In this document: positions 225 to 16,311 of the stretch, one piece after another
Layout of the letters: each line of letters opens with the position of its first letter
How positions within the stretch are numbered: position 1 is the first letter of the stretch
Assembly (NCBI RefSeq): GCF_012184425.1
Contig: NZ_VTOW01000002.1
Location: 248,001 to 312,000, forward strand
DNA from: Candidatus Manganitrophus noduliformans
Lineage (GTDB): Bacteria; Nitrospirota; Nitrospiria; SBBL01; Manganitrophaceae
Reading direction: 5' to 3'
DNA length: 64,000 nt
The notes under the pieces: generated by a model
The model's database searches: none
Seen by the model: only the letters and a program-made list of their open reading frames with translations
Told to the model about the DNA's origin: nothing
Program-made: the position numbers and the translations under genes

Positions 225-556
225 CTGCTTTTGAATTATCATCTGGTCTTGTAAGTTGGCGCAACGGGGGTGAACTTCCACCCTCTCCACACCGATTCAA
301 AACCCGCACAGGGAGGTGCTATGGGGAGGACTGTCATGCCGACAGCGGATGTTTTGAGTATCCGTGCATACTGCCTCAAAGATCTTCTCCAAAATCGTCT
401 TGTCTTTTTTTCTCATCCCTCTTCTCTGCCTATAAAATCGCCCATCCGTTTAAACGAACGATCAGAATTGAAGTGCTGCATTGGTCCAGTCAGCTACTTC
501 AGGATATGGATACCAATACCTGAGTTTAACTCAAAAAAGAGGAGGCCGGCTCTCGT
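225..556 (+). other. Non-coding leader with several hairpins
   Basis: I see no convincing gene in the first 556 bases. Downstream of the putative promoter the leader can form several short stems: GGGTG/CACCC around 264-282, GCAC/GTGC near 306-319, CTGTC/GACAG around 331-346, and CGGAT/ATCCG around 347-365. None matches a riboswitch consensus I recognise, including the c-di-GMP GEMM type. It may be an unclassified structured leader of the kinase mRNA or simply intergenic DNA. Confidence 0.3.
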
Positions 557-3500
557 ATGTTCTTATTTCATTTAACGGCCGGACTCGCTCTCACGGCAAT
601 TACCGTATTCCTTCTCGGACTGTTCGTTCTTATAAGAAAAGGACGTGAACGTTTAGGCGTTCTCTTCTTTCTTTGGTGCCTCTCTATTTCATGGTGGAGC
701 TTTTTTGAGATTCTCCTTATACAAAGCTCAAATGAAAAATCGGCCCTATTCTGGGGCCGAATTATGCAAGCCGGAGACATGCACCTTCCAACCCTCTTTG
801 TACATTTCATTTTAACGCTTTTAGGGTTGCAGATCGCTCGTTGGAAACTTATTGCCCTATACGGGGTGAGCACCTTGCTTAGCGTTCTCTGTTTTACTCC
901 TCTCGTTATCTCGGGTGTGGGGCCAAGCAATCTTTTCTCTTTCTTCATTAAGCCCGGTCCGTTATATATTTATATGATTATTTTTTTCATATCATGTGTG
1001 ATTTACGGACAACTAAAGTTATATCAAGCTTACTCCTCTGCCTCACCCTCGAAAAAAGTTCAAATCGGATATTTCTTCTGGAGTTCAATCGGCGGATGGA
1101 TTGGAGGTTGCGCGAACTTCCTCCTCGTTTATGATATTAAAATCCCCCTTTTAAATGAATACGGCACGTATGCCGTTCCTTTCTTTGCGGTATCCACAAC
1201 CTATTCCATTGTTCGCCATCAACTCATGGATATTCGAACCGTCATTCACATGACCATAATGTGGTTGACAACTTTCTCTTTGGCCCTTATACCGATCCTG
1301 GTCGTCATTTTACCGGCTAAGCGGTGGCTAGCGGATCTTACCAACCTCCAGATTTCCGCTCTGATCTCAGCGTACTTTGTGTTTCTAGTCCTCTACATCA
1401 AAACCGTTCAACCCCGGATCGACCACTTTTTCCAGCGGCGAAAGTATGACATGGAAAAAATCCTGCATGGAATGGTAAAGGAACTCGCTCTGCTCAAGGA
1501 TCTAATGGAACTAACAGAGAAAATTGCGGCCACCATTCGAGAAGCCATGTATGTTTCCCATTCTTCAATCATTCTGTGGGAAAAGAAAAAACAGGGCTAT
1601 CTAAACATCAACGGGCCAAACCAAAATGTCGATCTTTCGACTCATGCTTCTTTTCTCAATTGGATGAAAGTGAAAGATCGCGTCATTGAATGGAATGAGA
1701 TCGAAGCTGAACCCCAATATAAAGAGATTAGAATTCCGGCGCGAAATTATTTCGAAGCGTTGTCAGCCAAGATAGCTCTCCCTCTAGTGCATGAAGATCA
1801 ACTGATCGGCGTCATCAACCTAGGCGAGAAAGATAACCTCAAGCCCTTCACCCGTGAAGATATCGAATTCCTATCGACGCTTCGAGCTCAATCGACCATT
1901 TCACTTTCTAACTCCCTTTTGTACGAAGATGTCCACAAAATGTCCGAAGAGCTCCGGCGCTGGGCCTCGGAGTTGGAAGAAAAGGTTGCTACGCGAACGC
2001 ATGAGCTTTCCGAACGAACAAAAGAGCTCTCTGAAAGTAAGACAGAATTAGAACGCTCCTATCAGAAGCTCCAGGAGCTCGACCGCATCAAATCTCAGTT
2101 CTTCGCAAACATCTCTCACGAGTTTCGAACGCCCCTTACGCTCATTCTCGCGCCGCTCGAATCTTTTCTCAATCAACCGAATCTTCCGGAAGAACAGCGA
2201 AAACACTTTCAGATCATGTATCAGAACGGACTTCGTCTTCTTAAACTCATCAACAACTTATTAGATTTGGCAAAGATCGATACCGGGAAAATGCCGCTTT
2301 CTTATTCAAAGACCGACTTGGTGGCATTTATTAAAGGGATTATCTCTTCTCTCACCCCTCTCACCTACAAAAAACAGATCCACGTCTCATTTCTGGCTGA
2401 TAGAAGCGTGATCGAATTCTATTTCGATCGCGATAAAATCGAAAAGGTCCTCCTGAATCTGCTATTTAATGCCATTAAGTTTACCGAACGGGGCGGAGAA
2501 ATTATTCTCTCCTGCGCGGAAAAAGAGGGGCATGTTGTTGTCAAAGTATCGGATACGGGCGTCGGCATCGGCAGAGAAAATCTTCACAAGCTCTTCAGCC
2601 GTTTTACACAGCTCGATGCCTCCGCCACCCGACAACACGAAGGAACCGGGATCGGCCTTGCCCTTTCTAAAGAGTTGGTGGAGCTCCATCAAGGAAAGAT
2701 CTGGGTCGAGAGTGAAGTCGGAAGGGGAACGGTCATCTCCTTCACCCTTCCTTCTCTTAAAGAGATGCCCATATCAAGCCTCTTCACACCTTGCCAAGAA
2801 AATTCAGAGGAGAATTGGTTCCGCTCGCTTCACAAGACGGCGGAGTATGCGGAAGGAAGAATCCTTCAAGAATCCGCTGCACTCCCTCCGCAATTCGCAA
2901 CGGAAGAAAAGAGCAGACCGAAGATCCTTATCGTTGAAGACAACTCCGACATGCTCGACTTCATCGGCACTCTCCTTCAGGGGGACTATAACGTTGCTCT
3001 TGCTCGAAACGGAGCCGAAGGGCTTGAGCGAGCAAAGACCGACCCTCCCGATCTGATCCTCGCCGACATCATGATGCCGATGAAGGATGGTTATCAGCTC
3101 TGCCGTGAAATAAAAGAGGACCTCACAACGCGTCACATCCCGGTGGTCTTGGTCACCGCCAAGGCCGATCTGTCGATGAAGATCGAAGGATTGAACCAAG
3201 GGGCCGATGATTACTTGACCAAACCATTTAGCTCCGAAGAGTTGAAGGCGCGCGTGAGATCACTTCTAAACCTTCGGACGCTCGAAAAAGAAATTCAGAT
3301 GAGAAACCAGGCGCTGGAGAAAACGCTCGCCGAGCTGCGAAAGACTCAGACGCAACTGATTCACTCGGCCAAAATGGCGGCGCTGGGAACCTTGGTGGCC
3401 GGCCTCTCACACGAGATGAACAATCCACTGACTCCGGTGATCGGTTTTGCTGAGCTTCTCTTAGGCATGCCTCTTCCTAAAGAGGCGCATCAGTGTGCAG

Positions 3501-4477
3501 ACACCATCTCCAGGGAAGCGCGCCGATGTGCCGCTGTTATAAGAAGCCTCTCGGACTTTGCACGCAAATCTCCCCCGCTCTGGCAAGGAAACGATTTGAA
3601 CAGCTTGATTCATTCTGTTTTGGAGCTGAACGCCTCTTACCTTCGCACCGACAATATCGTACTCGAATTGAATCTCGATCCACGTCTTCCCAAAACACTT
3701 GTGGATGGCAACCAGATCAAGCAGGTTCTGTTAAATCTCATCAACAATGCTCACCAAGCCGTTTTGATAAATGAGGAAGAACGGAGAATCCAAATTGTTT
3801 CGGAACAAACTGCAGGGCTCCTACGAATCACAATTGGGGACAATGGTCCGGGAATTCCCAAGGAAGTTCAGTCCCGGCTCTTCGAGCCTTTTTTCACGAC
3901 GAAGCCGGAAGGAGAAGGAACGGGGTTGGGATTGGCGATCTCGCATGGGATCATCGCATCTCATGGCGGGAAGCTCGGATTTATCTCTGAGGAAGGGATC
4001 GGGACACGCTTCTGGTTTGAGCTGCCGATCCGTACCGCTGCATCCACTGCTCCCACTCTCCCCTCAGAAACAAGTGTACTCCATCAAGACAGACGGGCGC
4101 TGGTGGTGGACGATGAGCCGATGGTTCTGGAGGTCTGCAAGACGGCATTGGAGCAGATCGGATTTGTTGTCGATGCGGTGCACAGCGGAGAAGCCGCCTT
4201 GGAACAATTGACCAAAACCTCCTATGACCTGCTGGTCGCCGATATTCGTATGCCGGGGATGGGCGGGATTCAGTTTCTGGAGCAGGTCGGCCGCGTCTAT
4301 CCGGAGATCTTGGATCGGACCATTTTAATCACTGGGGATGCTGTCAATTCAGTGACGTCGGCGTTCCTCAATCGAACCCGCATCACCGTTCTGGAAAAAC
4401 CGTTCGACCTCGCAGAGCTTCAACACCGGGCAAAGTCAATTCTAGAACGAAATTCAACCCAACGGTGGAGAGTTTGA
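557..4477 (+). CDS. Hybrid sensor histidine kinase with 7-TM input, GAF and two kinase/receiver modules
   Basis: A 1306-residue membrane kinase. Residues 1-290 hold about seven to eight hydrophobic helices of the kinase-associated 7-TM input type. A GAF-like domain (about 310-465) and a coiled coil follow. Kinase module 1 has phospho-acceptor His521 (motif NISHEFRTP) and an ATPase domain with the DTGVGIG and GTGIGLALS boxes. A receiver with Asp837 follows. Kinase module 2 has His952 (GLSHEMNNP) and a second ATPase domain, and a C-terminal receiver carries Asp1229. The ATG at 557 follows AAGAGGAGG. It is strongly similar to the kinase at 10083, and the two bracket the three PilZ-enzyme genes, which suggests a shared signal. 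The ligand is unknown. Confidence 0.9.
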   Translation: MFLFHLTAGLALTAITVFLLGLFVLIRKGRERLGVLFFLWCLSISWWSFFEILLIQSSNEKSALFWGRIMQAGDMHLPTLFVHFILTLLGLQIARWKLIALYGVSTLLSVLCFTPLVISGVGPSNLFSFFIKPGPLYIYMIIFFISCVIYGQLKLYQAYSSASPSKKVQIGYFFWSSIGGWIGGCANFLLVYDIKIPLLNEYGTYAVPFFAVSTTYSIVRHQLMDIRTVIHMTIMWLTTFSLALIPILVVILPAKRWLADLTNLQISALISAYFVFLVLYIKTVQPRIDHFFQRRKYDMEKILHGMVKELALLKDLMELTEKIAATIREAMYVSHSSIILWEKKKQGYLNINGPNQNVDLSTHASFLNWMKVKDRVIEWNEIEAEPQYKEIRIPARNYFEALSAKIALPLVHEDQLIGVINLGEKDNLKPFTREDIEFLSTLRAQSTISLSNSLLYEDVHKMSEELRRWASELEEKVATRTHELSERTKELSESKTELERSYQKLQELDRIKSQFFANISHEFRTPLTLILAPLESFLNQPNLPEEQRKHFQIMYQNGLRLLKLINNLLDLAKIDTGKMPLSYSKTDLVAFIKGIISSLTPLTYKKQIHVSFLADRSVIEFYFDRDKIEKVLLNLLFNAIKFTERGGEIILSCAEKEGHVVVKVSDTGVGIGRENLHKLFSRFTQLDASATRQHEGTGIGLALSKELVELHQGKIWVESEVGRGTVISFTLPSLKEMPISSLFTPCQENSEENWFRSLHKTAEYAEGRILQESAALPPQFATEEKSRPKILIVEDNSDMLDFIGTLLQGDYNVALARNGAEGLERAKTDPPDLILADIMMPMKDGYQLCREIKEDLTTRHIPVVLVTAKADLSMKIEGLNQGADDYLTKPFSSEELKARVRSLLNLRTLEKEIQMRNQALEKTLAELRKTQTQLIHSAKMAALGTLVAGLSHEMNNPLTPVIGFAELLLGMPLPKEAHQCADTISREARRCAAVIRSLSDFARKSPPLWQGNDLNSLIHSVLELNASYLRTDNIVLELNLDPRLPKTLVDGNQIKQVLLNLINNAHQAVLINEEERRIQIVSEQTAGLLRITIGDNGPGIPKEVQSRLFEPFFTTKPEGEGTGLGLAISHGIIASHGGKLGFISEEGIGTRFWFELPIRTAASTAPTLPSETSVLHQDRRALVVDDEPMVLEVCKTALEQIGFVVDAVHSGEAALEQLTKTSYDLLVADIRMPGMGGIQFLEQVGRVYPEILDRTILITGDAVNSVTSAFLNRTRITVLEKPFDLAELQHRAKSILERNSTQRWRV

Positions 4478-4581
4478 CGAAATACAACATCACTTTAGCG
4501 CCGATGCCTATGACTAAAGTTCTCCGACATAAATATTAAAGCATTTACTTATTAATATAAATGATCGTCAAGGAGATAGAG

Positions 4582-5925
4582 ATGTTGAGTCAACTCCTAT
4601 TTCATGAGCGACGGAGGATCAATATATTGTTGCAGACCAATGACCGGCGCAATGGAGAGCGGCGTCAACGGGTTGAAGCTTACTCGCCGGAGCGGCGCCG
4701 TCCTGCTTCGAGAATCCGATGTCAGGAGCGAGAAGGTATCGTCCTACCTATCCGTCTCGAGATTGAGGGAAAAGACAGGGTCGGTCACATGGTAAATATC
4801 AGCCCCGGGGGGGTAATGATTCGAACGAATACGCCATTGCGCGAAGGTTTGGAGGTCTTCCTGCATCTCTTCTCGGAACAGGATGCCTTTTCTCTTCGTT
4901 TGTTCGGTCGGATAGTTTTCTGTCGTTCATTGGAGGAGAGAGGATCGTTGTCGCAGGCAGTTGGCATCCAATTTCGGACCTCAGGCGAATTTAACCAGAA
5001 AGTGCTCGCTGCGACCATTGATTTGATCAGCAAAAAGGATGCAACAGAGGACCAGTTCGGAATCAGTATTCTTATCTCAGATGAGCGACACCTCGTTGAA
5101 AAACAGCCGGGAGCTCTGCCGATGCTTCCGTTAATCAGTAAAGCGATAACCCAAATAAGGGAAATGCCGATCAACCAAATAACGTCGCCGGAAACGAGGC
5201 GCACCACGGTGGGGGGAAGGAGAAAAAAACAGGAGCTTCGATTTACCCCCGATCCCGACTGGGTTATCAAAATGAACCAATCCCTTGAACCGTATCGTCA
5301 GGTAATTTTGCAGTCGCGTTTGGTCCAGGAAACATCTAAAGGGCAACTTTCGCTAAAGCAAATCCGGGGATGGAATATTCAGTTTTATCCTTTTATTCAC
5401 AGTGTCCCTCATTTCATAGCGTTGAATTTGGCGAGGGCAAACGATCCGATGTCGCGGACGTATCTCATTGATAATATCCGTGTTGAGAAGCGCCATGCCG
5501 ATCAGTGGGTTGACATGGCTCAGGGATTCGGCGTGAGCACGGAAGAGCTCTTTCAATCTCCTATCCTGGCAGAAGTGGAGGCACTGACACACTGGATGTG
5601 GTCGGTCACTACCCGGGCTAGCTTTATCGAATCGGTGGCTGCATTACACTATGCGATCGAGGGAATCACCCAAGAAATAGCAGCAATCATGGTTAAGGAG
5701 TTGAATAAATATAAGCTGTTTGAATGGGTTCATCTTGATCGAAAGGCGTGCCAGTGGATGGAAATGCACACTCGTTATGATCACCGCCACCCCTACAAAG
5801 CGCTCGAGATTATTAAACTCCATGCAGTATCGCTAAAGGACCAGGAGAAGGTCAAGGAAGCGACCCAGCGCAGTCTGGAATATCTCTTTCTTGCACTGGA
5901 AGCATGTTATGTCGCTTTTGCGTGA
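4582..5925 (+). CDS. PilZ domain fused to a heme-oxygenase-like (probable di-iron) enzyme domain
   Basis: 447 residues from the ATG at 4582, which has AAGGAG six bases upstream; an earlier ATG at 4561 lacks such a site. An Arg-rich leader (residues 8-50) runs into a PilZ domain with both c-di-GMP motifs: RxxxR at 46-50 and NxSxxG at 72-77. The C-terminal half (about 225-447) is all-helical and resembles the iron-containing redox enzyme/TENA-like superfamily. His305, Glu360 and the trio His396-x3-Asp400-x2-His403 fit the metal ligands of heme-oxygenase-like di-iron oxidases such as CADD, UndA and SznF. The first-helix carboxylate is uncertain (Asp297 or Glu302). Such enzymes cleave or oxidise fatty acids or amino acids. 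The substrate here is unknown; the dehydrogenase neighbours suggest an acyl or aldehyde compound. Confidence 0.75.
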   Translation: MLSQLLFHERRRINILLQTNDRRNGERRQRVEAYSPERRRPASRIRCQEREGIVLPIRLEIEGKDRVGHMVNISPGGVMIRTNTPLREGLEVFLHLFSEQDAFSLRLFGRIVFCRSLEERGSLSQAVGIQFRTSGEFNQKVLAATIDLISKKDATEDQFGISILISDERHLVEKQPGALPMLPLISKAITQIREMPINQITSPETRRTTVGGRRKKQELRFTPDPDWVIKMNQSLEPYRQVILQSRLVQETSKGQLSLKQIRGWNIQFYPFIHSVPHFIALNLARANDPMSRTYLIDNIRVEKRHADQWVDMAQGFGVSTEELFQSPILAEVEALTHWMWSVTTRASFIESVAALHYAIEGITQEIAAIMVKELNKYKLFEWVHLDRKACQWMEMHTRYDHRHPYKALEIIKLHAVSLKDQEKVKEATQRSLEYLFLALEACYVAFA

Positions 5926-5948
5926 ACAGACGCATTAAGCTGCAGAGG

Positions 5949-6098
5949 GAAGATTCTCATATCGTATTAACAACCGGCTTCTCCAGTCCTTGCGAGCGAT
6001 GCAACATTATCAGCCCTCCGGCATCATCGGCATTTTGAAAGCATCGCGGCATTAACGTTCTGCATAAGCCATTTAATCTGCAAGATCTTCAATGGTAT
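5949..6098 (+). pseudogene. Decayed C-terminal fragment of a receiver domain
   Basis: In one frame this gap encodes a stretch starting HIVLTTGFSSP, then SAF, an in-frame TGA at 6036, and INVLHKPFNLQDLQ. It lines up with the last third of the receiver at the end of the kinase encoded at 557 (TILITGDA, SAFLNRTR, ITVLEKPFDLAELQ), including the conserved Lys-Pro. The N-terminal half of a receiver, with its Asp, is missing and there is a stop. I read it as the relic of a lost regulator or of a duplicated kinase 3' end. The similarity was judged by eye. Confidence 0.55.
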
Positions 6099-6145
6099 GC
6101 ACCATTGATTCTTAACCATATTTTTATATTTCAATGGAGGAACCA

Positions 6146-7924
6146 ATGAAAACAAAAACCTCAGTTTTCTTCGACAGAAGGCAGAACGCCGTACCAATCA
6201 ATTTTAACGATAGAAGGACAGCCGAACGAAGGATCGCTGAAGAACCGATCTCGCCAGAACGACGACGCCTGTTCTCGCAAATACGTCACTTTGATCGAGA
6301 AAATATTAATATCCAAGTTTATCTACAATCAGAAGGAAAAGAGATACACGGCCATACGCAAAATATAAGTTTAGGAGGCCTTCTCGTTTACAGCACTATT
6401 GCTCTAAACAATGGAGATCCTACAATCCTTCAATTCTCCTTTGGAGAGCATGCTTGTTTTGTCAATATTTCGGGACAGGTTGTCTTTTGCCATTTGGTAA
6501 ACGATAAAGAATCTGGACAGTATGTGATCGGAATTAAATTTACCGCTATTCGTGATTTTGAGCAGAGAATTCTAATAACAGCGTTTCAAACCCTCAAACA
6601 GAGTACTATTACCCAGCAGAAATCATCATTGAGAATCGTTGCCTCAAAGGATACCTTAGCCCAGGAGGCAGCCAATCTTCCAAATCATACTTTCAGAATT
6701 GGACAAACAGCCTTTGCCAATTTGAAACCCACTGTTCTCACTCAAAAAGACCCGACCTCTCTGTTAAACGGAGTCAGCTTTGAACTGACCGATGAACAAA
6801 AAGCATTGCAAGAAACCGTACGAAAATTTACCGAAAAAGAGATCGAGCCTGTTGCTGGATACTACGATCGAACCGGAGAATTTCCTCGGGATATAATCCA
6901 AAAAGCTTTTGAACTTGGCTTATTGACTTGTTACATCCCAGAAAAGTTTGGCGGAAATGGGTTAGGAATTTTTGAAACGGCGTTGATCACAGAAGAGCTT
7001 GCCGCAGGTTGCGTGGGTATTACCACATCAATTATGGTCAATCTTCTTGGAATAAGTCCACTTCTTATCGCTGCAACAGAATCGCAGAAAGAGAAATATT
7101 TAACATCCTATTGTCGTCAGTTAACTCTGTATTCGTTTTGCTTCACTGAACCAGATGCTGGTTCAGATCCAAGCCGTATTGCGACAAGAGCTGAATTGGT
7201 TGGAGATCACTATATTCTAAATGGTTCAAAATGTTTTATCACAAATGGAGGTGTTTCTGACTATTATGTTGTCTTTGCTACCGTTGACAGGAGCATTGGA
7301 ACAAAAGGGCTTACGGCTTTTCTAACACCATCTAAAGCTGAGGGCATCAGTATTGGCAAAACTCTCGATAAAATGGGACAGCGCGCTTCAAATACAGCAG
7401 AGATATTTTTCGATAATGTCAAAATTCCTGTAGAAAATAGGATCGGTAAAGAACATGAGGGATATAAAATCGCGATGCTGTCTATATCACGATCAAGAAT
7501 CAATGTTGCTGCAGGCTCAGTTGGGGTGGCAAGGACCGCGATGGATCACGCCATGCGATATGTTCAGAAGCGAGTACAATTTAACCAAGCGTTAGCCAAT
7601 TTTCAATATGTACAGTTTAGACTAGCTGATATGGCAAGTGCTATTGATGCGGCAAGATTACTGGCCTGGCGAGCTGCATGGGTACATGATAAAGGACAAC
7701 GATACGCCAAACAAGCATCAATGGCCAAGGACTTTGCCGGTGATATGGTAATGAAGGCGACTAGTGAAGCACTCGATCTTCTCGGTGGCTACGGCTACTC
7801 GAAAGAATTCCCAATGGAAAAACTAATGCGAGATGCAAAACTGATGCAGATTTACGAGGGACCATCGCCAGTCCATAAGACAATAATTTATCGAGAATTG
7901 GCAAACGAATATGGTCTGTGTTAA
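6146..7924 (+). CDS. PilZ domain fused to an acyl-CoA dehydrogenase
   Basis: 592 residues from the ATG at 6146; the TGGAGGA at 6135-6141 is its ribosome site, so the earlier ATG at 6134 is unlikely. The Arg-rich leader (DRR, ERR and ERRR clusters) is followed by a PilZ domain with RxxxR at 47-51 and NxSxxG at 73-78. An acyl-CoA dehydrogenase occupies about 212-590 with the TEPDAGSD box, the helical C-terminal domain and the catalytic Glu571 in IYEGP. The enzyme should oxidise an acyl-CoA to the 2,3-enoyl-CoA using FAD and pass electrons to an ETF-type partner. The gene is A+T-rich compared with the rest of the window. It is followed by the PilZ-aldehyde dehydrogenase after only 17 bases, which indicates co-transcription. 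Confidence 0.88.
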   Translation: MKTKTSVFFDRRQNAVPINFNDRRTAERRIAEEPISPERRRLFSQIRHFDRENINIQVYLQSEGKEIHGHTQNISLGGLLVYSTIALNNGDPTILQFSFGEHACFVNISGQVVFCHLVNDKESGQYVIGIKFTAIRDFEQRILITAFQTLKQSTITQQKSSLRIVASKDTLAQEAANLPNHTFRIGQTAFANLKPTVLTQKDPTSLLNGVSFELTDEQKALQETVRKFTEKEIEPVAGYYDRTGEFPRDIIQKAFELGLLTCYIPEKFGGNGLGIFETALITEELAAGCVGITTSIMVNLLGISPLLIAATESQKEKYLTSYCRQLTLYSFCFTEPDAGSDPSRIATRAELVGDHYILNGSKCFITNGGVSDYYVVFATVDRSIGTKGLTAFLTPSKAEGISIGKTLDKMGQRASNTAEIFFDNVKIPVENRIGKEHEGYKIAMLSISRSRINVAAGSVGVARTAMDHAMRYVQKRVQFNQALANFQYVQFRLADMASAIDAARLLAWRAAWVHDKGQRYAKQASMAKDFAGDMVMKATSEALDLLGGYGYSKEFPMEKLMRDAKLMQIYEGPSPVHKTIIYRELANEYGLC

Positions 7925-7941
7925 CTGGTGAGGAGAAAGAT

Positions 7942-10053
7942 ATGTCGAATGTTATAGATAGCAAATATAATAGGCGTATACGTGACACTGATCGACGCCG
8001 ATTCAAATCACTTGTACTATCTAACGATAGACGTAAGGAACAGCGACGACAAAGGTCAGTTGATATCGCCAATGAATTTAACCAAAAGTTCTTGAAACCA
8101 GGAGGAAGACACTCCAGAAGGACAAAAGAACGACGCGGTTTTCTTTGTCCGGCGAATATATTTCCAGAAAATTCAATCCTGAGAGAAAAAGAAGCCATCC
8201 ATGGAACGATTGTAAACATATCTTCCCAAGGCCTGGCCATCGCCTTATCGAGTGGTGCTGATTGGCTGACCTCCTGTAATGAGGTCACAATAACATGGGG
8301 TCCATCAACCGTATTATCCGGAAGAATAATCTGGAAAGATTTTAATTCATATTATCTCAACAACGGGAACAGTTATTTGATTGGTATTGAGCTTAACAAA
8401 ACAGCCAATAACAAATCTACCTTAAGATTCTCCCCACCCTTAGAAAAAAATCTAACCCGAATCGAATCGATCTCTGACATTCCTAGTGTTGATTTCTACC
8501 CGCTGTATATTGGAGGCAGGGATGTCGACACCGGCATTTATGGTTTCTCTGCAGACACAGCTAAATTGATATTGAACCCATCAGAGACTTTGCTGAATCA
8601 AGAGACCATATTGAATGGTTCCATACCGGATAACAATTTTAAAAGTACGTATGCAGCATACTGCATTGCTTACGACAACTATATTGATGAAGCAATTGAC
8701 GCCGCATTTAATGCGTGGCAAGAGTTTCGTCATACCTCTATTCATAAGAGGAAGCGCCTCTTTTATGATTTCTACGACAACATCAAGAATCATCGTAGTC
8801 AACTAATCGATTTAATGGTTAAGGAAGGCCACCCGCTACGATTAGCTGAATGGGAACATGCGGGAATGGTTAAGGCTTATGAACCAAAGACAATAAACTT
8901 TTATCTCAAACAACTTTTTAGGAAATTAGGCAACGATGGCGATGAACAGCTATTCCTCGCCAGAAAACCGGATGGTGTGGTATGTGTTATGCCCCCTGGG
9001 AATGCTCCATGTCCGAATTCTTTATTGGCTGCTTTCGCACTTCTTGGAGGCAACACCCTAATAATTAAACCACCACTTCGTAATCCTATATCCACAATGT
9101 ATCTCTGGAGAAAAGTAATCGGCGACGTCCTCCAATCCAACAAAATTTCGCCCGGAGTGGTAAATTTAATAATTGGTGATTCCGAAGGAATCCTAAAGAA
9201 ATGGCTCGCAAGTCCAAAGGTAAGCGATATTGTCTATTTCGGAGACAGTCATACAGGGCTCAATATCGGCTCACAGATTTATTCAAGTGGGAAAAAACCT
9301 ATCTTGGAACTTTCGGGTAATGACACAATGGTGATTTGGAAAGATGCAAATCTAGAAGGCGCTGCGGATTCACTTATCGAAGGATTTAACGGTTCAATGC
9401 AGATATGCATGGTAGCAAGACGTGCCGTGATACATCCAGCAATATATGATCAGTTTCAATCAATCATTTTAGATAAAATAAAAAAAATAAGTGCTGGTCT
9501 GCCGGATGACAAAACAAGTTATCTTGCTCCAGTAGGGAAAATTGAACTGTTCTATGAATACCTTTTAGATGCGTTAAGAAAAGGTGCACAATTGATTTAT
9601 GGAGGAACCCGCATCAATTATGCAGGCTCTCCCGATCCAAGTGGAATATTCATCACTCCAACTCTTATAACAGTCGAAGATATACCTATCGCGGAAACGA
9701 TGAAATGCACTCTGGAAGAAGGTTTTTTCCCTCTCCTCACACTCATAAATGCTTCAGATAGGTCTTCCAAGATTGAATCTGATGATATAATCTTTTCTAG
9801 AATCATGACCTTTTTAGATCAGAATACATACGGCCTTCGAACTTCTGTCTGGATTGAGTCAAAACGTTACATGAAAAAATTCATAAAATCCATCCAAGGT
9901 AGCGGGATTATTCGGATCAATTTACTTCACACTGGATTCTCTGCCTTTGTTGGAACTCACGGTGGCCCAAAGCGATCAGGGGGGCCGTTTGGCGAACTCA
10001 ATTATTTATGGGAAAAAACAACACATCTTCAAGGAATAGCTTTAAGAGAGTGA
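7942..10053 (+). CDS. PilZ domain fused to an aldehyde dehydrogenase
   Basis: 703 residues. The ATG at 7942 is preceded by GAGGAGA. The first 65 residues are Arg-rich, and the PilZ domain has RxxxR at 60-64 and NxSxxG at 92-97. Residues about 190-690 form an NAD(P)-dependent aldehyde dehydrogenase with the expected catalytic set: Asn354, Lys376 (IIKPP), Glu456 (LELSGN) and the nucleophile Cys489 (QICMVARR). It should oxidise an aldehyde to an acid, or work in reverse as an acyl-CoA reductase; the sequence does not decide. It completes the PilZ-enzyme trio and is A+T-rich like its upstream neighbour. The next gene, a sensor kinase, starts 29 bases later and is probably in the same transcript. 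Confidence 0.87.
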   Translation: MSNVIDSKYNRRIRDTDRRRFKSLVLSNDRRKEQRRQRSVDIANEFNQKFLKPGGRHSRRTKERRGFLCPANIFPENSILREKEAIHGTIVNISSQGLAIALSSGADWLTSCNEVTITWGPSTVLSGRIIWKDFNSYYLNNGNSYLIGIELNKTANNKSTLRFSPPLEKNLTRIESISDIPSVDFYPLYIGGRDVDTGIYGFSADTAKLILNPSETLLNQETILNGSIPDNNFKSTYAAYCIAYDNYIDEAIDAAFNAWQEFRHTSIHKRKRLFYDFYDNIKNHRSQLIDLMVKEGHPLRLAEWEHAGMVKAYEPKTINFYLKQLFRKLGNDGDEQLFLARKPDGVVCVMPPGNAPCPNSLLAAFALLGGNTLIIKPPLRNPISTMYLWRKVIGDVLQSNKISPGVVNLIIGDSEGILKKWLASPKVSDIVYFGDSHTGLNIGSQIYSSGKKPILELSGNDTMVIWKDANLEGAADSLIEGFNGSMQICMVARRAVIHPAIYDQFQSIILDKIKKISAGLPDDKTSYLAPVGKIELFYEYLLDALRKGAQLIYGGTRINYAGSPDPSGIFITPTLITVEDIPIAETMKCTLEEGFFPLLTLINASDRSSKIESDDIIFSRIMTFLDQNTYGLRTSVWIESKRYMKKFIKSIQGSGIIRINLLHTGFSAFVGTHGGPKRSGGPFGELNYLWEKTTHLQGIALRE

Positions 10054-10082
10054 ACCGTGAAAAATAATTTGAGGTTATCGGT

Positions 10083-13000
10083 TTGATTCAACTCCTGCCA
10101 GGAGAATACCATTTTAATGCGTTTGGGATTCCCGTACTTCTTTGTGGGGTACTTATTTTATTTTTAGGCATTTTCACATTCTTCAAAAGTAGTAGAACAC
10201 AGGTTAACCTTTCTTTTTTCTTGTCCTGTTTTTCTATATCTATCTGGTTAATAGGAATCACTCTAGTTTATTTTTCTGGAGACGAAGAGACTGCCTTTTT
10301 TTGGGGACGATTCCTTTGGGCTGGTCTTGTCTTTATTGGTAGCTCTATTTATTTCCTGACGCTATCGCTGACTGATCTAACTGAAAATCGCCGAAATATT
10401 TTAATCATCAATTTTATAGTTTCTGGGCTTTTTTGTTTATCCGTTCTAACAACAGATAAATTTATTTATGGCGTTTGGAAATATAATTGGGGTTATTATC
10501 CAAAGGCAAATCTCCTCTATTATTTCTACATCCCTTTTTTCTTCACCCAAATGCTAGTCAGTCTATATAATTTTTATCTCGCCTATAGACGCGCTGACAA
10601 TCCTGTTCGAAAGCAACAAATGCGCTTAGTGCTTATTGCATTTGGTGTAGCATACACAGCTTCAGTCGATTATCTTCCTAATCTCGGGTTTGGTATTTAT
10701 CCCTTTGGCTACCTTCCAATGCTTATATTTACTGGGATAATGTTTTATTCCATAATCAGATACAAATTATGGGACATATCAACGGTTATACACAAGACTC
10801 TGATGTGGTTAACCACGTCCGGTTTAGCCCTTTTACCAGTTTTATTCACCATCTTATCGGCAAGACCATGGATTACCAATCTCACCGATCTTCAGCTTTC
10901 TGGTCTAGTCGCCCTTTACTTTCTTCTCTTAGTTTTCTACATCAAAACCATCCAGCCCCGCATCGACCATCTCTTCCAACGCCGGAAGTACGACATGCAA
11001 AAGATCTTGCAGGGAATGGTCAAGGAATTAGTTCTTCTTAAAGACCTGGAGGGCCTCATCAATAAAATTGTAGCGACTATTCGCGAAGCACTTTATGTTT
11101 CCAACTCATCAATTATTCTTTGGGAGAAAAAAAGGGCACGGTATTCAATGCGTGGTCTGGATTTGGATATCGATCTCTCCTCGCATCACACTTTTATGGA
11201 TTGGCTAAGAAGAGAAGACCGGGTAGTGGAGTGGAACGAAATCGAGGCCGACCCCCGCTTTACTGAAATCAAAAGTTCCGCACGGCAGTATTTTGAAGCG
11301 TTATCCGTCAAGGTTGCGCTTCCGCTCATACATGATAAGAACCTTATCGGCATCATCAACCTCGGAGAGAAAGACAATCTCAAACCGTTCACCCGCTCGG
11401 ACATTGAATTTCTGTCTAACCTTCGGGTGGAAGCCTCCATCGCCCTTTCCAATTCTCTTTTGTACGATGATGTCCAAAAGATGTCGGAGGCCATTCGGCA
11501 ATGGGCCCTGGATTTGGAAAAGAAAGTCGAAGAACGGACCCGTGAATTATCCGAGAGCAAAGAAGAATTGGAGCGCTCCTATAAAAAACTCCAGGAGCTC
11601 GACCAAGTCAAAACCCAATTCTTCGCCAACATCTCCCATGAGCTTCGCACTCCCCTCACGCTGATCCTGGCCCCGCTGGAATCGATTCTACACCGGGATT
11701 CGGTCCAAGGTGAACGAAGAGAAGATTTAAGTGCCATGTACCAGAACGGCCTTCGCCTTCTCAAATTAATCAATAACCTCCTCGATCTGGCGAAGATCGA
11801 CGCCGGGAAAATGCAGCTTTCTCACTTAAAGACCGACTTTACAAAATTCACCAAAGGGATCATTGCCTCCGTCACCCCCTTGGCGGAGAAGAAGGGGATC
11901 TCCCTCTCGTTTACCGGCCCGAATCCGCTCAACGAGTTTTACTTCGATCGAGATAAAATTGAGAAGGTCCTTTTGAACCTGATCTTCAATGCCCTCAAAT
12001 TCACCAATCCGGGAGGGAAGGTCGATGTCTCCTGTGAACAGAGAGAGGATCAAATTCTTGTCCGGATCTCCGACACCGGAATCGGCATCGCGAAAGAGAA
12101 TATCGACAAACTTTTTAATCGCTTCTCCCAGATTGACGCCTCGTCCAACCGCCGTTTCGAAGGAACCGGAATCGGGCTCGCCTTGTCGAAAGAATTGATC
12201 GAGCTCCATAAAGGAGAGATTTGGGCCGAAAGCGAATTGGGTAAAGGAACCGTGATCAGTTTTACCCTTCCCTATCTGACCGATCCAATCTGTATCCCCG
12301 AGCATGGAAAGGAAGGCGAAGCCGATTGGACACGCTCGCTCCACAAGGCGGCGGAATATACGACCGCGGGTATCGTTCAGGAAGGGCAATCGATCCAGAC
12401 GGCCCCCTCAAACGGCGCGCCGGCAGGGGCCCCCAAGATCCTCGTGGTCGAAGACAATCCCGACATGCTCCACTTTCTGGTGACGCAACTTCAAGACGAC
12501 TATCAAGTCGTCACCGCCCAGAATGGAGTGGACGGGGTGCAGTGCGCCCAGACCGATCTCCCCAATCTGATCCTCTCCGACGTCATGATGCCGATCAAAG
12601 ACGGGTATCAGCTCTGCCGGGAGGTCAAAGAAAACGCCTTGACGAAACATATCCCCATCGTCTTGATCTCCGCCAAAGCCGATCTCTCGATGAAGATCGA
12701 AGGGTTGGAGTATGGCGCCGACGACTACCTCACGAAACCGTTCAGCTGCGAAGAGCTGCGGGCGCGCATCAAATCGCTCCTCAACCAGCGCGGCCTGGAG
12801 ACTCAGCTGATTCATTCGGAGAAGATGGCGGCCCTCGGGCTTTTGGTGGCGGGGATGGCGCATGAGATCAACAACCCGATCAGCTTTGCGAAAGTCAGCT
12901 TGGAAAATCTTCACAACACCCTCGCAGAGCAGGACCGGCTCCTCAAAGAGGGAGCGGCCCCGGACAGCGCCGAGATGAAGCGGCTCAATGCCAAGATTGA

Positions 13001-13589
13001 CCGGGCCTTTTCGATCATCAAGACGGGACTTGATCGGACCGAGGCGATCGTTTCCGATCTGAAAGCGTTCGTCAGAAAAGACGAGGCCCAATTCAGACCG
13101 ACCGATCTCCATGAAGGCCTCGACTCCACCCTCAACCTGATGCGGACCGAATTGAAGGATCGAATCACGATTGTCAAAGAGTACGGCGAGATCGATCCGG
13201 TCGACGCGGTCCCTGGGCAGCTCAATCAAGTCTTCATGAACCTGCTACAGAACGCCATCCACGCCATTCCGGACGAAGGAGAAATACGGATCAAGACCTG
13301 GAAAGAAGACGATCGGGTGAAGATTTCCGTGAAGGACAGCGGCACCGGGATCTCGCCGGAGCATCAAAAGCGGATCTTCGAACCTTTCTTCACCACCAAA
13401 GAGGCCGGAAAAGGGACCGGGCTGGGGCTCTCCGTCAGCTACCGAATTCTCCAGAGCCACCGGGGAGACATCACCGTCATCAGCCGGCCGGGACAAGGGA
13501 CGGAGTTTGTGATAACCTTACCGGTGCGGCAAACGATCAGCACGGCACATCAAAACACATTAGGCGCAAGGGGTAAGGAGACAAGTTAA
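10083..13589 (+). CDS. Hybrid sensor histidine kinase with 7-TM input, GAF, kinase-receiver-kinase
   Basis: 1168 residues starting at TTG with GAGGT eight bases upstream. The order is 7-TM input (about 1-290), GAF (about 310-465), coiled coil, kinase with His519 (NISHELRTP) and ATPase domain, receiver with Asp833, and a second kinase with His927 (GMAHEINNP) and ATPase domain. Unlike its paralogue at 557 it has no final receiver, so it may pass phosphate to the receiver protein encoded at 13656. The first 800 bases are A+T-rich like the PilZ genes, while the kinase part is much more G+C-rich, which suggests a mosaic origin. Helices and GAF closely resemble those of the first kinase. Confidence 0.9.
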   Translation: MIQLLPGEYHFNAFGIPVLLCGVLILFLGIFTFFKSSRTQVNLSFFLSCFSISIWLIGITLVYFSGDEETAFFWGRFLWAGLVFIGSSIYFLTLSLTDLTENRRNILIINFIVSGLFCLSVLTTDKFIYGVWKYNWGYYPKANLLYYFYIPFFFTQMLVSLYNFYLAYRRADNPVRKQQMRLVLIAFGVAYTASVDYLPNLGFGIYPFGYLPMLIFTGIMFYSIIRYKLWDISTVIHKTLMWLTTSGLALLPVLFTILSARPWITNLTDLQLSGLVALYFLLLVFYIKTIQPRIDHLFQRRKYDMQKILQGMVKELVLLKDLEGLINKIVATIREALYVSNSSIILWEKKRARYSMRGLDLDIDLSSHHTFMDWLRREDRVVEWNEIEADPRFTEIKSSARQYFEALSVKVALPLIHDKNLIGIINLGEKDNLKPFTRSDIEFLSNLRVEASIALSNSLLYDDVQKMSEAIRQWALDLEKKVEERTRELSESKEELERSYKKLQELDQVKTQFFANISHELRTPLTLILAPLESILHRDSVQGERREDLSAMYQNGLRLLKLINNLLDLAKIDAGKMQLSHLKTDFTKFTKGIIASVTPLAEKKGISLSFTGPNPLNEFYFDRDKIEKVLLNLIFNALKFTNPGGKVDVSCEQREDQILVRISDTGIGIAKENIDKLFNRFSQIDASSNRRFEGTGIGLALSKELIELHKGEIWAESELGKGTVISFTLPYLTDPICIPEHGKEGEADWTRSLHKAAEYTTAGIVQEGQSIQTAPSNGAPAGAPKILVVEDNPDMLHFLVTQLQDDYQVVTAQNGVDGVQCAQTDLPNLILSDVMMPIKDGYQLCREVKENALTKHIPIVLISAKADLSMKIEGLEYGADDYLTKPFSCEELRARIKSLLNQRGLETQLIHSEKMAALGLLVAGMAHEINNPISFAKVSLENLHNTLAEQDRLLKEGAAPDSAEMKRLNAKIDRAFSIIKTGLDRTEAIVSDLKAFVRKDEAQFRPTDLHEGLDSTLNLMRTELKDRITIVKEYGEIDPVDAVPGQLNQVFMNLLQNAIHAIPDEGEIRIKTWKEDDRVKISVKDSGTGISPEHQKRIFEPFFTTKEAGKGTGLGLSVSYRILQSHRGDITVISRPGQGTEFVITLPVRQTISTAHQNTLGARGKETS

Positions 13590-13608
13590 GCGGCTTTCGC
13601 AGCTTAAC
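13585..13608 (+). terminator. Weak hairpin at the end of the second hybrid kinase
   Basis: GTTAAGC and GCTTAAC form a perfect 7-bp stem around a 10-base loop, overlapping the stop codon, followed by a pyrimidine-rich tract (TCTCTCCCCTCTTT). It lacks a clean T-run, so it may be a weak terminator or nothing. Confidence 0.3.
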
Positions 13609-13655
13609 TCTCTCCCCTCTTTCGCTCCTGTAACTTATATTTAGAAGGGACCTTC

Positions 13656-14855
13656 ATGCAGCAAGGAATCCATCCCAAAGATTACCCCGTTCTTTTCGTC
13701 GATGATGAAGAGATGGCCTTGATCAGCCTGGAGGAGCAATACGAGCGGGAGTTCACGATCTATACTGCAAAGAGCGGAAAAGAGGCGATCGAGACATTGC
13801 AGGCTCATCCGGAGATCGCCCTCATCATCAGCGATCAGCGGATGCCGGGGATGAGCGGCGTTGAATTTCTCGCCCAAGCGAAAAAGGCCGTTCCGGAAGC
13901 GGTCCGGATGCTGCTGACCGCCTATACCGAAATGGAAATGGTCATCGAGGCGATCAACAAGGGAAACATCTATCGCTATATCACCAAGCCTTACGACGTC
14001 GCCGACCTTCGCTGCGCGATGATCCAGGGGATCGAGCACTACTACCTTGTCAAGGAGCGGGACCGGCTCTATGCCGAGAAGATCGAAACCCTCAAGCGGG
14101 TCGCCCGGACCAACCGGCTGACCGCCATCGGCACCTTGGCGGCCGGCATGGCGCATGAGATCAACAACCCGATGGTCGCGATCTATACTTTTCTTCAGAT
14201 GCTCCCCCAGAAGCTCAAAGAGCCTCAATTGGACAAAGAATATCTGGAGAAATTCTACAGCCTCTCCATCCGGGAAGCGGAGCGGATCCAGACGCTGATC
14301 CGTAAATTGCTCGACTTTTCCAAGAACGGAGATCAGGACGAGCTCATCTTCAAAGAGAGCCAAATCAATCTGATCCTGCAGGAGGTGGTCTCTCTCCTGA
14401 AGCATGAAGCGAATAAAAAGGAAACCACCCTCGACCTTCAACTGGCTTCGGACATCCCCCTCGGGAAAATCGATTCGGAAAAGATCCGGCAGGTCTTTTT
14501 GAATTTGATTCTAAACGCCATCCATGCGACCCGCTCAGGCAAGATCACGGCGACCTCTTCTTTTCATCAAGACGAGCGGGGACAAGGCTACCTTCAAGTC
14601 GCGGTGGCCGATACGGGCGCCGGCATCTCGGAAGAGAATTTGGAGAAATTGTTCAACCCCTTCTTCACCACCAAAGACGCGCAAGGGACCGGCCTGGGGC
14701 TGATGATCTGCCATCACATTGTCGACCAACACCGCGGAAATATCGACGTCCAATCGAAACTGGGAAAAGGGACGACGATGACCGTTCAAATCCCGGTCGA
14801 TCCCACCCGGCATGAGCGCCGGAAAACGGAACGGAGAGAGAAAAGCAGGGATTAG
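13656..14855 (+). CDS. Receiver domain-histidine kinase protein
   Basis: 399 residues with no membrane segment. The receiver (about 10-130) has the acidic pair Asp16-Asp17, phospho-acceptor Asp60 (IISDQRMPG) and Lys in YITKPY. The kinase part has His167 (GMAHEINNP) and a full ATPase domain ending GTGLGLMIC. The layout suits a cytoplasmic phosphorelay partner for the two membrane kinases upstream, with autophosphorylation tuned by its own receiver. The last 15 residues (RHERRKTERREK) resemble the Arg-rich leaders of the three PilZ proteins. No output domain is present, so the final effector is not encoded next to it. Confidence 0.87.
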   Translation: MQQGIHPKDYPVLFVDDEEMALISLEEQYEREFTIYTAKSGKEAIETLQAHPEIALIISDQRMPGMSGVEFLAQAKKAVPEAVRMLLTAYTEMEMVIEAINKGNIYRYITKPYDVADLRCAMIQGIEHYYLVKERDRLYAEKIETLKRVARTNRLTAIGTLAAGMAHEINNPMVAIYTFLQMLPQKLKEPQLDKEYLEKFYSLSIREAERIQTLIRKLLDFSKNGDQDELIFKESQINLILQEVVSLLKHEANKKETTLDLQLASDIPLGKIDSEKIRQVFLNLILNAIHATRSGKITATSSFHQDERGQGYLQVAVADTGAGISEENLEKLFNPFFTTKDAQGTGLGLMICHHIVDQHRGNIDVQSKLGKGTTMTVQIPVDPTRHERRKTERREKSRD

Positions 14856-15127: not shown

Positions 15128-15535
15128 ATGAGCGAAGGACGACACTATTTCTTTGGGGGAATGATGTTTATGTTGGGCCTCACGGTCGGGATCGGCGCCG
15201 GCTTTCTTCTGGCGCCGCGCTCGGGACGCGACACCCGCAGACAAATCAAAGGACTCGCCGATGAGACCGGAACCCATCTCGGCCGGATCGCGGATGAAAC
15301 CAAACAGGTCTTCTCCGGCGTGGTGAAGCACGGAAAAGAGCTGGCAAAAGAGACCGGCGGCCATTTGGACAATATCACGCAGGAAGCGAAACAGACCGCG
15401 GACAAGATCACCGCGCACGGAAAGCAGATCGCGAAAGAGACCGGCGGCCACTTGGAGAATATCACGAAAGAAGCGAGGCAGACCGCGGACCAGATCGCCG
15501 CGCACGGAAAAGAACTCATGCGGGATTCGGCCTGA
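15128..15535 (+). CDS. YtxH-like membrane-anchored stress protein with 29-residue repeats
   Basis: 135 residues. One N-terminal hydrophobic segment (about 10-30, FFGGMMFMLGLTVGIGAG) leads to the APRSGRDTR motif typical of YtxH/GvpP-like proteins. The rest is charged and probably forms amphipathic helix. It contains a 29-residue unit (HGKxxAKETGGHLxNIT...QTADxI) present twice plus the start of a third copy; the DNA copies are spaced by exactly 87 bases. Related proteins are general-stress or LEA-like. AAAGGAGG precedes the ATG. The gene sits ahead of an osmotic-stress gene block and under a promoter with a likely TetR operator. Confidence 0.75.
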   Translation: MSEGRHYFFGGMMFMLGLTVGIGAGFLLAPRSGRDTRRQIKGLADETGTHLGRIADETKQVFSGVVKHGKELAKETGGHLDNITQEAKQTADKITAHGKQIAKETGGHLENITKEARQTADQIAAHGKELMRDSA

Positions 15536-15654
15536 TCCGGGCCGGCCGGTGAAGAAAGCGATCTTCCCCGGAACCCTCTTTCGGCCTGAAAGGCCGCGTG
15601 CGCGCCGGTCGCGCCGCCGCGTCAAAGCGCCCGGATCGGATACCGACAGAGATC

Positions 15655-16311
15655 ATGATCGACCATAGTGTTCTTAAGTCAAAAGAATCCTCCCCGCTTC
15701 TACAAACGCGGGTGGAGCGAAGAAAAGAGAAAACCCGTCGGACGCTGATGGAAGTGGCGCTCTCCCTTTTCTATGAAAAGGGAATTTATCTGACGAAAAT
15801 CGAAGATGTTACGGCCCGGGCCGACATTGGGAAGGGAACTTTCTACCTTTACTTTGATACCAAAGAGTTGCTTCTCCAGGCCGTTCTGGAAGAGGGGCTC
15901 CACCGCTTGCTTGTCCAAGCGACGGAAGCGGCCGAAACGGCCAAGCCGGGTCCGGGTCGAATCGGCGCGATCATCCGATCTCAACTCGATTTCTATCAGG
16001 ATCATCCCGAATACCTTCTGCTGTTCCACCAGGTCTGCGGCCTGCTCCAGCTGCAAACCGGTTCGGTCAAAGAGCTAAGAGAGGTCTACGGCCGCTACCT
16101 CAACGAATTGGGCCGGCTCGTGCAGCCGGCGCTGACCGGCAAGGGAAGCCGGACCGGTTTTCCACGCGAGTTCGGAATGGCCCTTTCGGCCGTGACGTCG
16201 GGCCTGCTGACCTATCACCTGCTCTTCGGGAAAAACAGGGTCTCCAAGCGCCGGAGGGCCGACGTCGAGATCCAAATCAAAAGGAGCCTCTCCGCGCTGA
16301 TCAAAGAGTAA
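15655..16311 (+). CDS. TetR/AcrR family transcriptional regulator
   Basis: 218 residues from the ATG at 15655; an in-frame ATG at 15598 would add 19 residues unlike the family. The N-terminal helix-turn-helix is clear: RRTLMEVALSLF, then IEDVTARADIGKGTFYLYF and TKELLLQAV. The remaining helices form a ligand domain of unknown specificity. It lies 119 bases after the YtxH gene and may be co-transcribed with it, giving autorepression through the palindrome at 15024. It may also influence the glgE cluster downstream. The ribosome site is weak, so the start is uncertain. Confidence 0.82.
   Translation: MIDHSVLKSKESSPLLQTRVERRKEKTRRTLMEVALSLFYEKGIYLTKIEDVTARADIGKGTFYLYFDTKELLLQAVLEEGLHRLLVQATEAAETAKPGPGRIGAIIRSQLDFYQDHPEYLLLFHQVCGLLQLQTGSVKELREVYGRYLNELGRLVQPALTGKGSRTGFPREFGMALSAVTSGLLTYHLLFGKNRVSKRRRADVEIQIKRSLSALIKE

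Follow-up and report, generated by a model that had tools for sequence, protein, structure and literature searches.

In Ralstonia, the PhcBSR(Q) system (signals methyl 3-hydroxymyristate or methyl 3-hydroxypalmitate, 3-OH MAME/PAME) comprises the methyltransferase PhcB, the membrane kinase PhcS and receivers without DNA-binding domain, encoded in one operon (PMC11960443, PMC6989110). In the alpha-hydroxyketone systems CqsA/CqsS and LqsA/LqsS, a pyridoxal-enzyme synthase adjoins a multi-transmembrane hybrid kinase (PMC3376566), and in the ComQXPA pherotypes of Bacillus synthase and signal vary jointly with the membrane half of the kinase while its cytoplasmic part is conserved (PMC4008528). Moreover, 1-undecene, the product of UndA, was reported to serve P. 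fluorescens as an aerial signal within the species, its mode of detection being unknown, and undA in Pseudomonas is reportedly always associated with rbdA, which is implicated in cyclic di-GMP (c-di-GMP) homeostasis (PMC10614000). Here, we describe a locus of Candidatus Manganitrophus noduliformans in which three consecutive enzymes, each with an N-terminal PilZ domain (P1, P2 and P3, the trio), are encoded between two seven-transmembrane (7TM) hybrid histidine kinases (HK1 and HK2). It lies in a stretch of 64,000 nucleotides (the window; contig NZ_VTOW01000002.1, positions 248,001 to 312,000). Judged from sequence comparisons, the trio is probably the signal-producing half of a quorum-sensing-like locus, with the 7TM kinases as receptors and c-di-GMP gating of the synthases.

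The successive genes are all on the plus strand, as are their domains and the divergent islands described below: HK1 5' of the trio (557..4477; HisKA_7TM-GAF-HisKA-HATPase-REC-HisKA-HATPase-REC), P1 (4582..5925), P2 (6146..7924), P3 (7942..10053), HK2 (10083..13589; HisKA_7TM at 10134-10778, followed by GAF-HisKA-HATPase-REC-HisKA-HATPase) and a response regulator with C-terminal histidine kinase, the receiver-kinase protein (13656..14855), which is kept in 6/6 genomes of the genus. A preliminary description made from the sequence alone had placed 7TM sensor kinases on either side of the trio, and Pfam identified both as 7TM hybrid histidine kinases. As judged by gene order and strand, the locus resembles PhcBSR in holding synthase, membrane kinase and receiver protein together; it differs in that its cassette has no methyltransferase, in its other enzymes, the HisKA_7TM sensors, the PilZ domain on the synthase and the polymorphism of the cassette. 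A further likeness is found in the sister genome G005, the allele of which carries a homologous-looking methyltransferase and a kinase with a MASE8 sensor: compared with a phcBSRQ-like operon of Paraburkholderia (not PhcB itself), the methyltransferase showed 31% identity (E 2e-35) and the kinase 27% over 416 amino acids, sensor included. The likeness to CqsA/LqsA consists in a PilZ fusion of an enzyme from this superfamily, present only in G002 (at a second locus, locus B) and G028 and absent from the window; this alpha-oxoamine synthase scored higher with serine palmitoyltransferase/KBL (298 bits) than with CqsA (154 bits), and in contrast to CqsA/CqsS it is fused to PilZ and the sensor is HisKA_7TM. 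With ComQXPA the window locus shares the joint replacement of enzyme and sensor half on a conserved kinase body, whereas the ComQXPA signal is a modified peptide of one chemistry and here the enzyme class itself is swapped. P1 resembles Pseudomonas UndA, which is the best PDB match of its enzyme domain, but P1 has PilZ in cis and 7TM kinases adjacent. Finally, YcgR, BcsA and Alg44 likewise possess PilZ with RxxxR and [DN]xSxxG, although these act on motility or polysaccharide synthesis and not, as here, alongside acyl-, isoprenoid- and oxoamine-type enzymes. A literature search on PilZ-enzyme fusions, MASE8 or 7TM kinases and Manganitrophus signalling found no relevant prior report.

Replacement of the cassette between sister species

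The window's own genome (G000) was compared with other Candidatus Manganitrophus genomes (G002, G003, G004 and G005), of which G003 is Candidatus Manganitrophus sp. GAC4 (CP114561). The DNA of G000 and G003 is 92-96% identical in the flanks, in the HK1 body (1389-4472) and in the HK2 body with the receiver-kinase gene (10759-14830), whereas two islands did not align, namely 365..1388, spanning the 7TM sensor of HK1 and bordered on both sides by DNA of 92-95% identity, and 4473..10758, containing the entire trio and the HK2 sensor. Within HK2, identity between the two genomes is about 26% in amino acids 1-240 and 90-100% beyond, and G005 instead has a MASE8 domain as sensor, on a body 92.9% identical to that of the window (mostly 90-100% along its length). 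Over the sister species as a whole, the flanks are about 95% identical and the sensor halves of both flanking kinases about 25%, as opposed to 93-100% in the kinase bodies. The position of the trio is occupied by PilZ-KASIII in G003 and G004 and by PilZ-methyltransferase in G005, the methyltransferase domain of the latter having no sequence match in PDB. In the tree of kinase bodies the HK2 proteins of the window and G003 are sisters, while in the sensor tree their sensors fall into different clades. Synthase and sensor domain thus co-vary at this locus while the kinase body is kept, and on these alignments and trees the trio is one of the alleles of a swappable cassette with sharp boundaries. 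An assembly artefact was ruled out, as the swap is seen at two loci and, besides G003 (locus on a contig of 4.2 Mb), in the complete single-contig genome G005. The G+C content drops to 0.41-0.42 over the greater part of P2, P3 and the HK2 sensor, as compared to about 0.58 in most of the remaining window, which fits recent import of the trio region.

The same pattern was observed at this second locus of the genus (locus B), which encodes PilZ-HMG-CoA reductase of two diverged kinds (G000 and G003 vs. G004 and G005) or, in G002, the PilZ-oxoamine synthase mentioned above; between G000 and G005 its sensors are 25-43% and its kinase bodies 86-100% identical. Locus B of G003 (L085, 7414-14039) is broken by frameshifts or stops, with six in-frame stops in the receiver-kinase match, and may be decaying. 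Additional kinases were seen in the window's own genome: at the start of contig C2 (L135, 336-3587) a stand-alone 4HBT thioesterase is followed by another 7TM kinase, and a similar kinase on C10 (L136) has no neighbour.

The sensor of HK1 belongs to the KASIII-linked receptor clade, with 53-57% identity to KASIII-linked sensors of this genus and of two other genera, and a KASIII of this class was not found in the window's genome. The HK1 sensor of G003, in turn, groups with UndA-linked receptors, a clade that also holds one orphan kinase. A KASIII-type sensor in a genome without the corresponding KASIII, together with the reverse situation in G003, may reflect eavesdropping, and it is possible that the window species and G003 reciprocally sense the signal of their sister.

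PilZ domains and enzymes of the trio

The preliminary description had ascribed PilZ domains at the N-termini, complete with the two c-di-GMP motifs, to three consecutive enzymes, and this was borne out by Pfam and motif searches. PilZ (PF07238, curated cut-off of 22.5 bits) was detected in P1 with 44.4 bits, together with TENA/Haem_oxygenas_2, and in P2 with 46.1 bits, together with a full-length acyl-CoA dehydrogenase; in P3, which matched Aldedh with 185 bits, PilZ reached just 18.1 bits, and here the assignment draws support from an alignment and, more tentatively, from the modelled fold. The RxxxR and [DN]xSxxG motifs are present in all three domains: RCQER (4717-4731) and NISPGG (4795-4812) in P1 (PilZ at 4717..4986), RHFDR (6284-6298) and NISLGG (6362-6379) in P2 (6278-6571), RTKER (8119-8133) and NISSQG (8215-8232) in the divergent domain of P3 (8116-8349). 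The N-terminal region of P3 aligns with PilZ modules of the same locus in other species, the motif arginines and I-S-x-x-G being invariant, and it scored 151 bits against a profile of these modules, a partly circular value since the profile includes P3. The AlphaFold2 model of the P3 N-terminus was weak overall (predicted local distance difference test score, pLDDT, of 57) and contained a six-strand barrel at amino acids 69-151 (pLDDT about 64-80), the top PDB matches of which were mostly PilZ domains, with a best E of 2.6e-3 and none better than E = 1e-3. A full-length model of P1 was not used, its PilZ part being poor (pLDDT mostly <50) and based on just three aligned sequences. Since the genome has 24 PilZ matches, of which the trio supplies three, their occurrence on three adjacent unrelated enzymes is not due to chance. 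Furthermore, the N-terminal modules of P1 and P2 are homologous (32% identity across the module, 41% in the first 60 residues) while their enzymes are not, which indicates that a sensor module was shuffled onto unrelated enzymes.

The three co-directional open reading frames (ORFs) may extend from 4561 or 4582 to 5925, from 6134 or 6146 to 7924 and from 7918 or 7942 to 10053; the starts at 4582, 6146 and 7942 were preferred based on Shine-Dalgarno positions. Each protein begins with an Arg-rich N-terminal module preceding PilZ. P1, described earlier as a heme-oxygenase-like oxidase, can be refined to a UndA-like non-heme diiron fatty-acid decarboxylase (domain at 5236..5922): UndA scored 115 bits and CADD 41 bits, and CADD or TenA as identity of P1 was ruled out by the far higher UndA score. 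The residues E, H, E and H, which serve as diiron ligands in UndA, are identical in the P1 alignment. A contig search with P1 alone as query gave no match. P2 is nearest to medium-chain acyl-CoA dehydrogenases (domain at 6788-7900), and P3 contains an aldehyde dehydrogenase-fold domain (8677-10014) in which the catalytic Cys, Glu and Asn typical of such enzymes were recognised by eye. UndA and medium-chain acyl-CoA dehydrogenase both prefer medium chains, and a medium-chain product of the trio is therefore likely. The UndA-like domain suggests a 1-alkene as product; judged by P2 and P3, the chain may be unsaturated or derived from an aldehyde.

The C-terminus of the receiver-kinase protein (14820-14855, ERRKTERR) resembles the N-terminal motif of the synthases; such Arg-rich RRxxxRR-like motifs are common to this C-terminus and the synthase N-termini (4582-4716, 6146-6280 and 7942-8115) in the genus and its relatives, and docking or a membrane tether is a possible role. 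Downstream, a YtxH-like small protein with repeated amphipathic segments (ETGGHLxNIT...; 15128-15535) and, after it, a TetR-type regulator (15598-16311) were recognised by eye.

Linkage of synthases and 7TM kinases across the phylum

Profiles of the PilZ module and the 7TM sensor, searched against 396 genomes of the phylum (Nitrospirota), together with one collection scan, revealed many enzyme classes adjoining 7TM kinases: UndA-like enzymes, aldehyde dehydrogenase, KASIII, KASII, thioesterase, methyltransferase, HMG-CoA reductase, oxoamine synthase, LuxD-like acyltransferase-methyltransferase and thioester reductase, where labels such as LuxD-like and thioester reductase denote profile matches alone. 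Loci of this kind occur in Omnitrophota, too. In 40 neighbourhoods picked blind to their neighbours, a synthase homologue was located immediately 5' of 25/41 kinases as compared to 20/339 other ORFs (Fisher p = 1.5e-16), the gap between synthase and kinase having a median of about 10 bp and often being <=12 bp. The synthase references of this test were the earlier loci of this study, which undercounts new enzyme classes and causes no inflation, and its rule scores at least one locus, L132, as negative although synthase and kinase are fused in frame there, in one protein of 1641 amino acids (G313, 6383-11308; PilZ-PilZ-LuxD-like acyltransferase-methyltransferase-7TM-GAF-kinase). When enzyme classes were mapped on the sensor tree, 15 changes were counted as compared to a mean of 34-39 after shuffling (p <= 0.0005), and the grouping holds across genera. 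Kinases with tandem 7TM domains were also encountered (L027, L064, L065, L066, L125 and L139), in which the second domain forms its own clade and the first tracks the enzyme class.

These searches also bear on the earlier view of the trio as a whole metabolic route, which did not hold: sister species carry other enzymes at the same locus, P1-like and P3-like enzymes stand singly beside 7TM kinases and P2-like enzymes were found with other partners, so that a conserved three-enzyme pathway is rejected. The single P1 homologue (L150) and the P3 homologues upstream of 7TM kinases (L159 and L163) lack PilZ, which marks PilZ as a frequent extra input and not a defining part. Most PilZ-fused synthases, across unrelated classes, keep both c-di-GMP motifs intact; in Nitrospira-type genomes (L068-L074, L139 and L144), a degenerate PilZ-like N-terminus was seen on an acyl-ACP/thioester reductase adjoining a 7TM kinase.

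Several observations speak against a c-di-GMP-gated signalling locus. The HK2 sensor of the window is near, yet not firmly with, the aldehyde dehydrogenase-linked sensors, about one third of the 7TM kinases sampled stand without a synthase beside them, the PilZ domain of P3 is divergent, PilZ is missing from a large part of the wider family, and both motifs are lost in the Nitrospira reductase fusions checked (G047 and G273), so that PilZ may act as a scaffold. The last point, together with the ERRKxERR-like tails common to the synthases and the receiver-kinase C-terminus, would fit a PilZ that is degenerate or acts purely as docking module without sensing c-di-GMP; given that P1-P3 and most other fusions keep both motifs, we consider this rather unlikely, and it would touch the gating only and leave the signalling reading intact. 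Membrane-lipid homeostasis, with the enzymes as acyl-chain remodellers, the 7TM kinases as DesK-like sensors of the membrane state and PilZ as the link between remodelling and lifestyle, would agree with acyl chains as substrate of most of the enzymes and with membrane-embedded sensors. It appears unlikely, since with a common physical cue one would not expect the sensor domain alone to change along with enzymes as unrelated in their chemistry as a UndA-like decarboxylase, HMG-CoA reductase, oxoamine synthase and aldehyde dehydrogenase.

The sensor swap, which speaks for product recognition, also counts against loci for an antimicrobial or other natural product that the kinases sense for autoregulation or resistance. 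Swappable biosynthetic genes and low G+C content are reminiscent of mobile biosynthetic clusters, and L142 and L154 pair KAS2 with an oxidoreductase, but many loci contain a single small enzyme and no recurrent transport or resistance genes were found among the sampled loci, which makes a secondary-metabolite origin improbable. Ordinary catabolic enzymes for fatty-acid or alkane use, with an acquired PilZ and two-component regulation by their substrate, might be suspected from acyl-CoA dehydrogenase and aldehyde dehydrogenase, both common in catabolism. This is highly improbable considering that the trio is not conserved, that its substitutes KASIII, methyltransferase and oxoamine synthase are biosynthetic and that P3-like and UndA-like enzymes occur singly beside 7TM kinases.

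Proposed signalling mechanism and significance

Following this, we propose for the quorum-sensing-like locus that the lipid-modifying enzymes of the trio would form a hydrophobic signal, probably medium-chain and perhaps volatile, to be detected by the 7TM domains of the neighbouring hybrid kinases, i.e., HK2 and perhaps HK1, which would pass phosphate on to the receiver-kinase protein encoded downstream. As a single cassette, the enzymes would travel with their matching 7TM domain, and sister species would thus possess different signal types ('pherotypes') on a common kinase chassis. c-di-GMP is the intracellular messenger of the sessile/motile switch; acting via the N-terminal PilZ domains it would switch the synthases and confine signalling to the right physiological state. 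The product as kinase ligand, its action between cells, its chemistry as well as c-di-GMP binding to PilZ and the effect on activity are what we infer from these comparisons.

The core of the preliminary description, a lipid-type signal with 7TM kinases and c-di-GMP input, gains from the co-replacement, the phylum-wide linkage and the autoinducer-synthase superfamilies among the alternative enzymes, and loses the trio as a conserved route. Of the two options left by its wording, a pathway that makes or degrades the signal, the evidence favours making. Control by c-di-GMP is in line with the intact motifs of the trio and, PilZ being frequent and not universal, would constitute an added layer. 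More tentatively, the loci may belong to a large undescribed class in which a 7TM kinase chassis is combined with ten or more exchangeable lipid chemistries; many of the synthases would be gated by c-di-GMP, and some cells may carry a receptor for a neighbour's signal.

Such a system would supply candidates for the receptors of volatile or lipid signals of unknown detection, e.g., UndA-derived 1-alkenes (PMC10614000), and would join c-di-GMP and cell-cell signalling, the two main lifestyle circuits of bacteria, within single proteins. The natural series of sensor domains paired to enzyme classes would render the ligand specificity of 7TM kinases testable. Taken together, the locus may represent a communication system for Nitrospirota, including the nitrifiers and the manganese-oxidising lineage.

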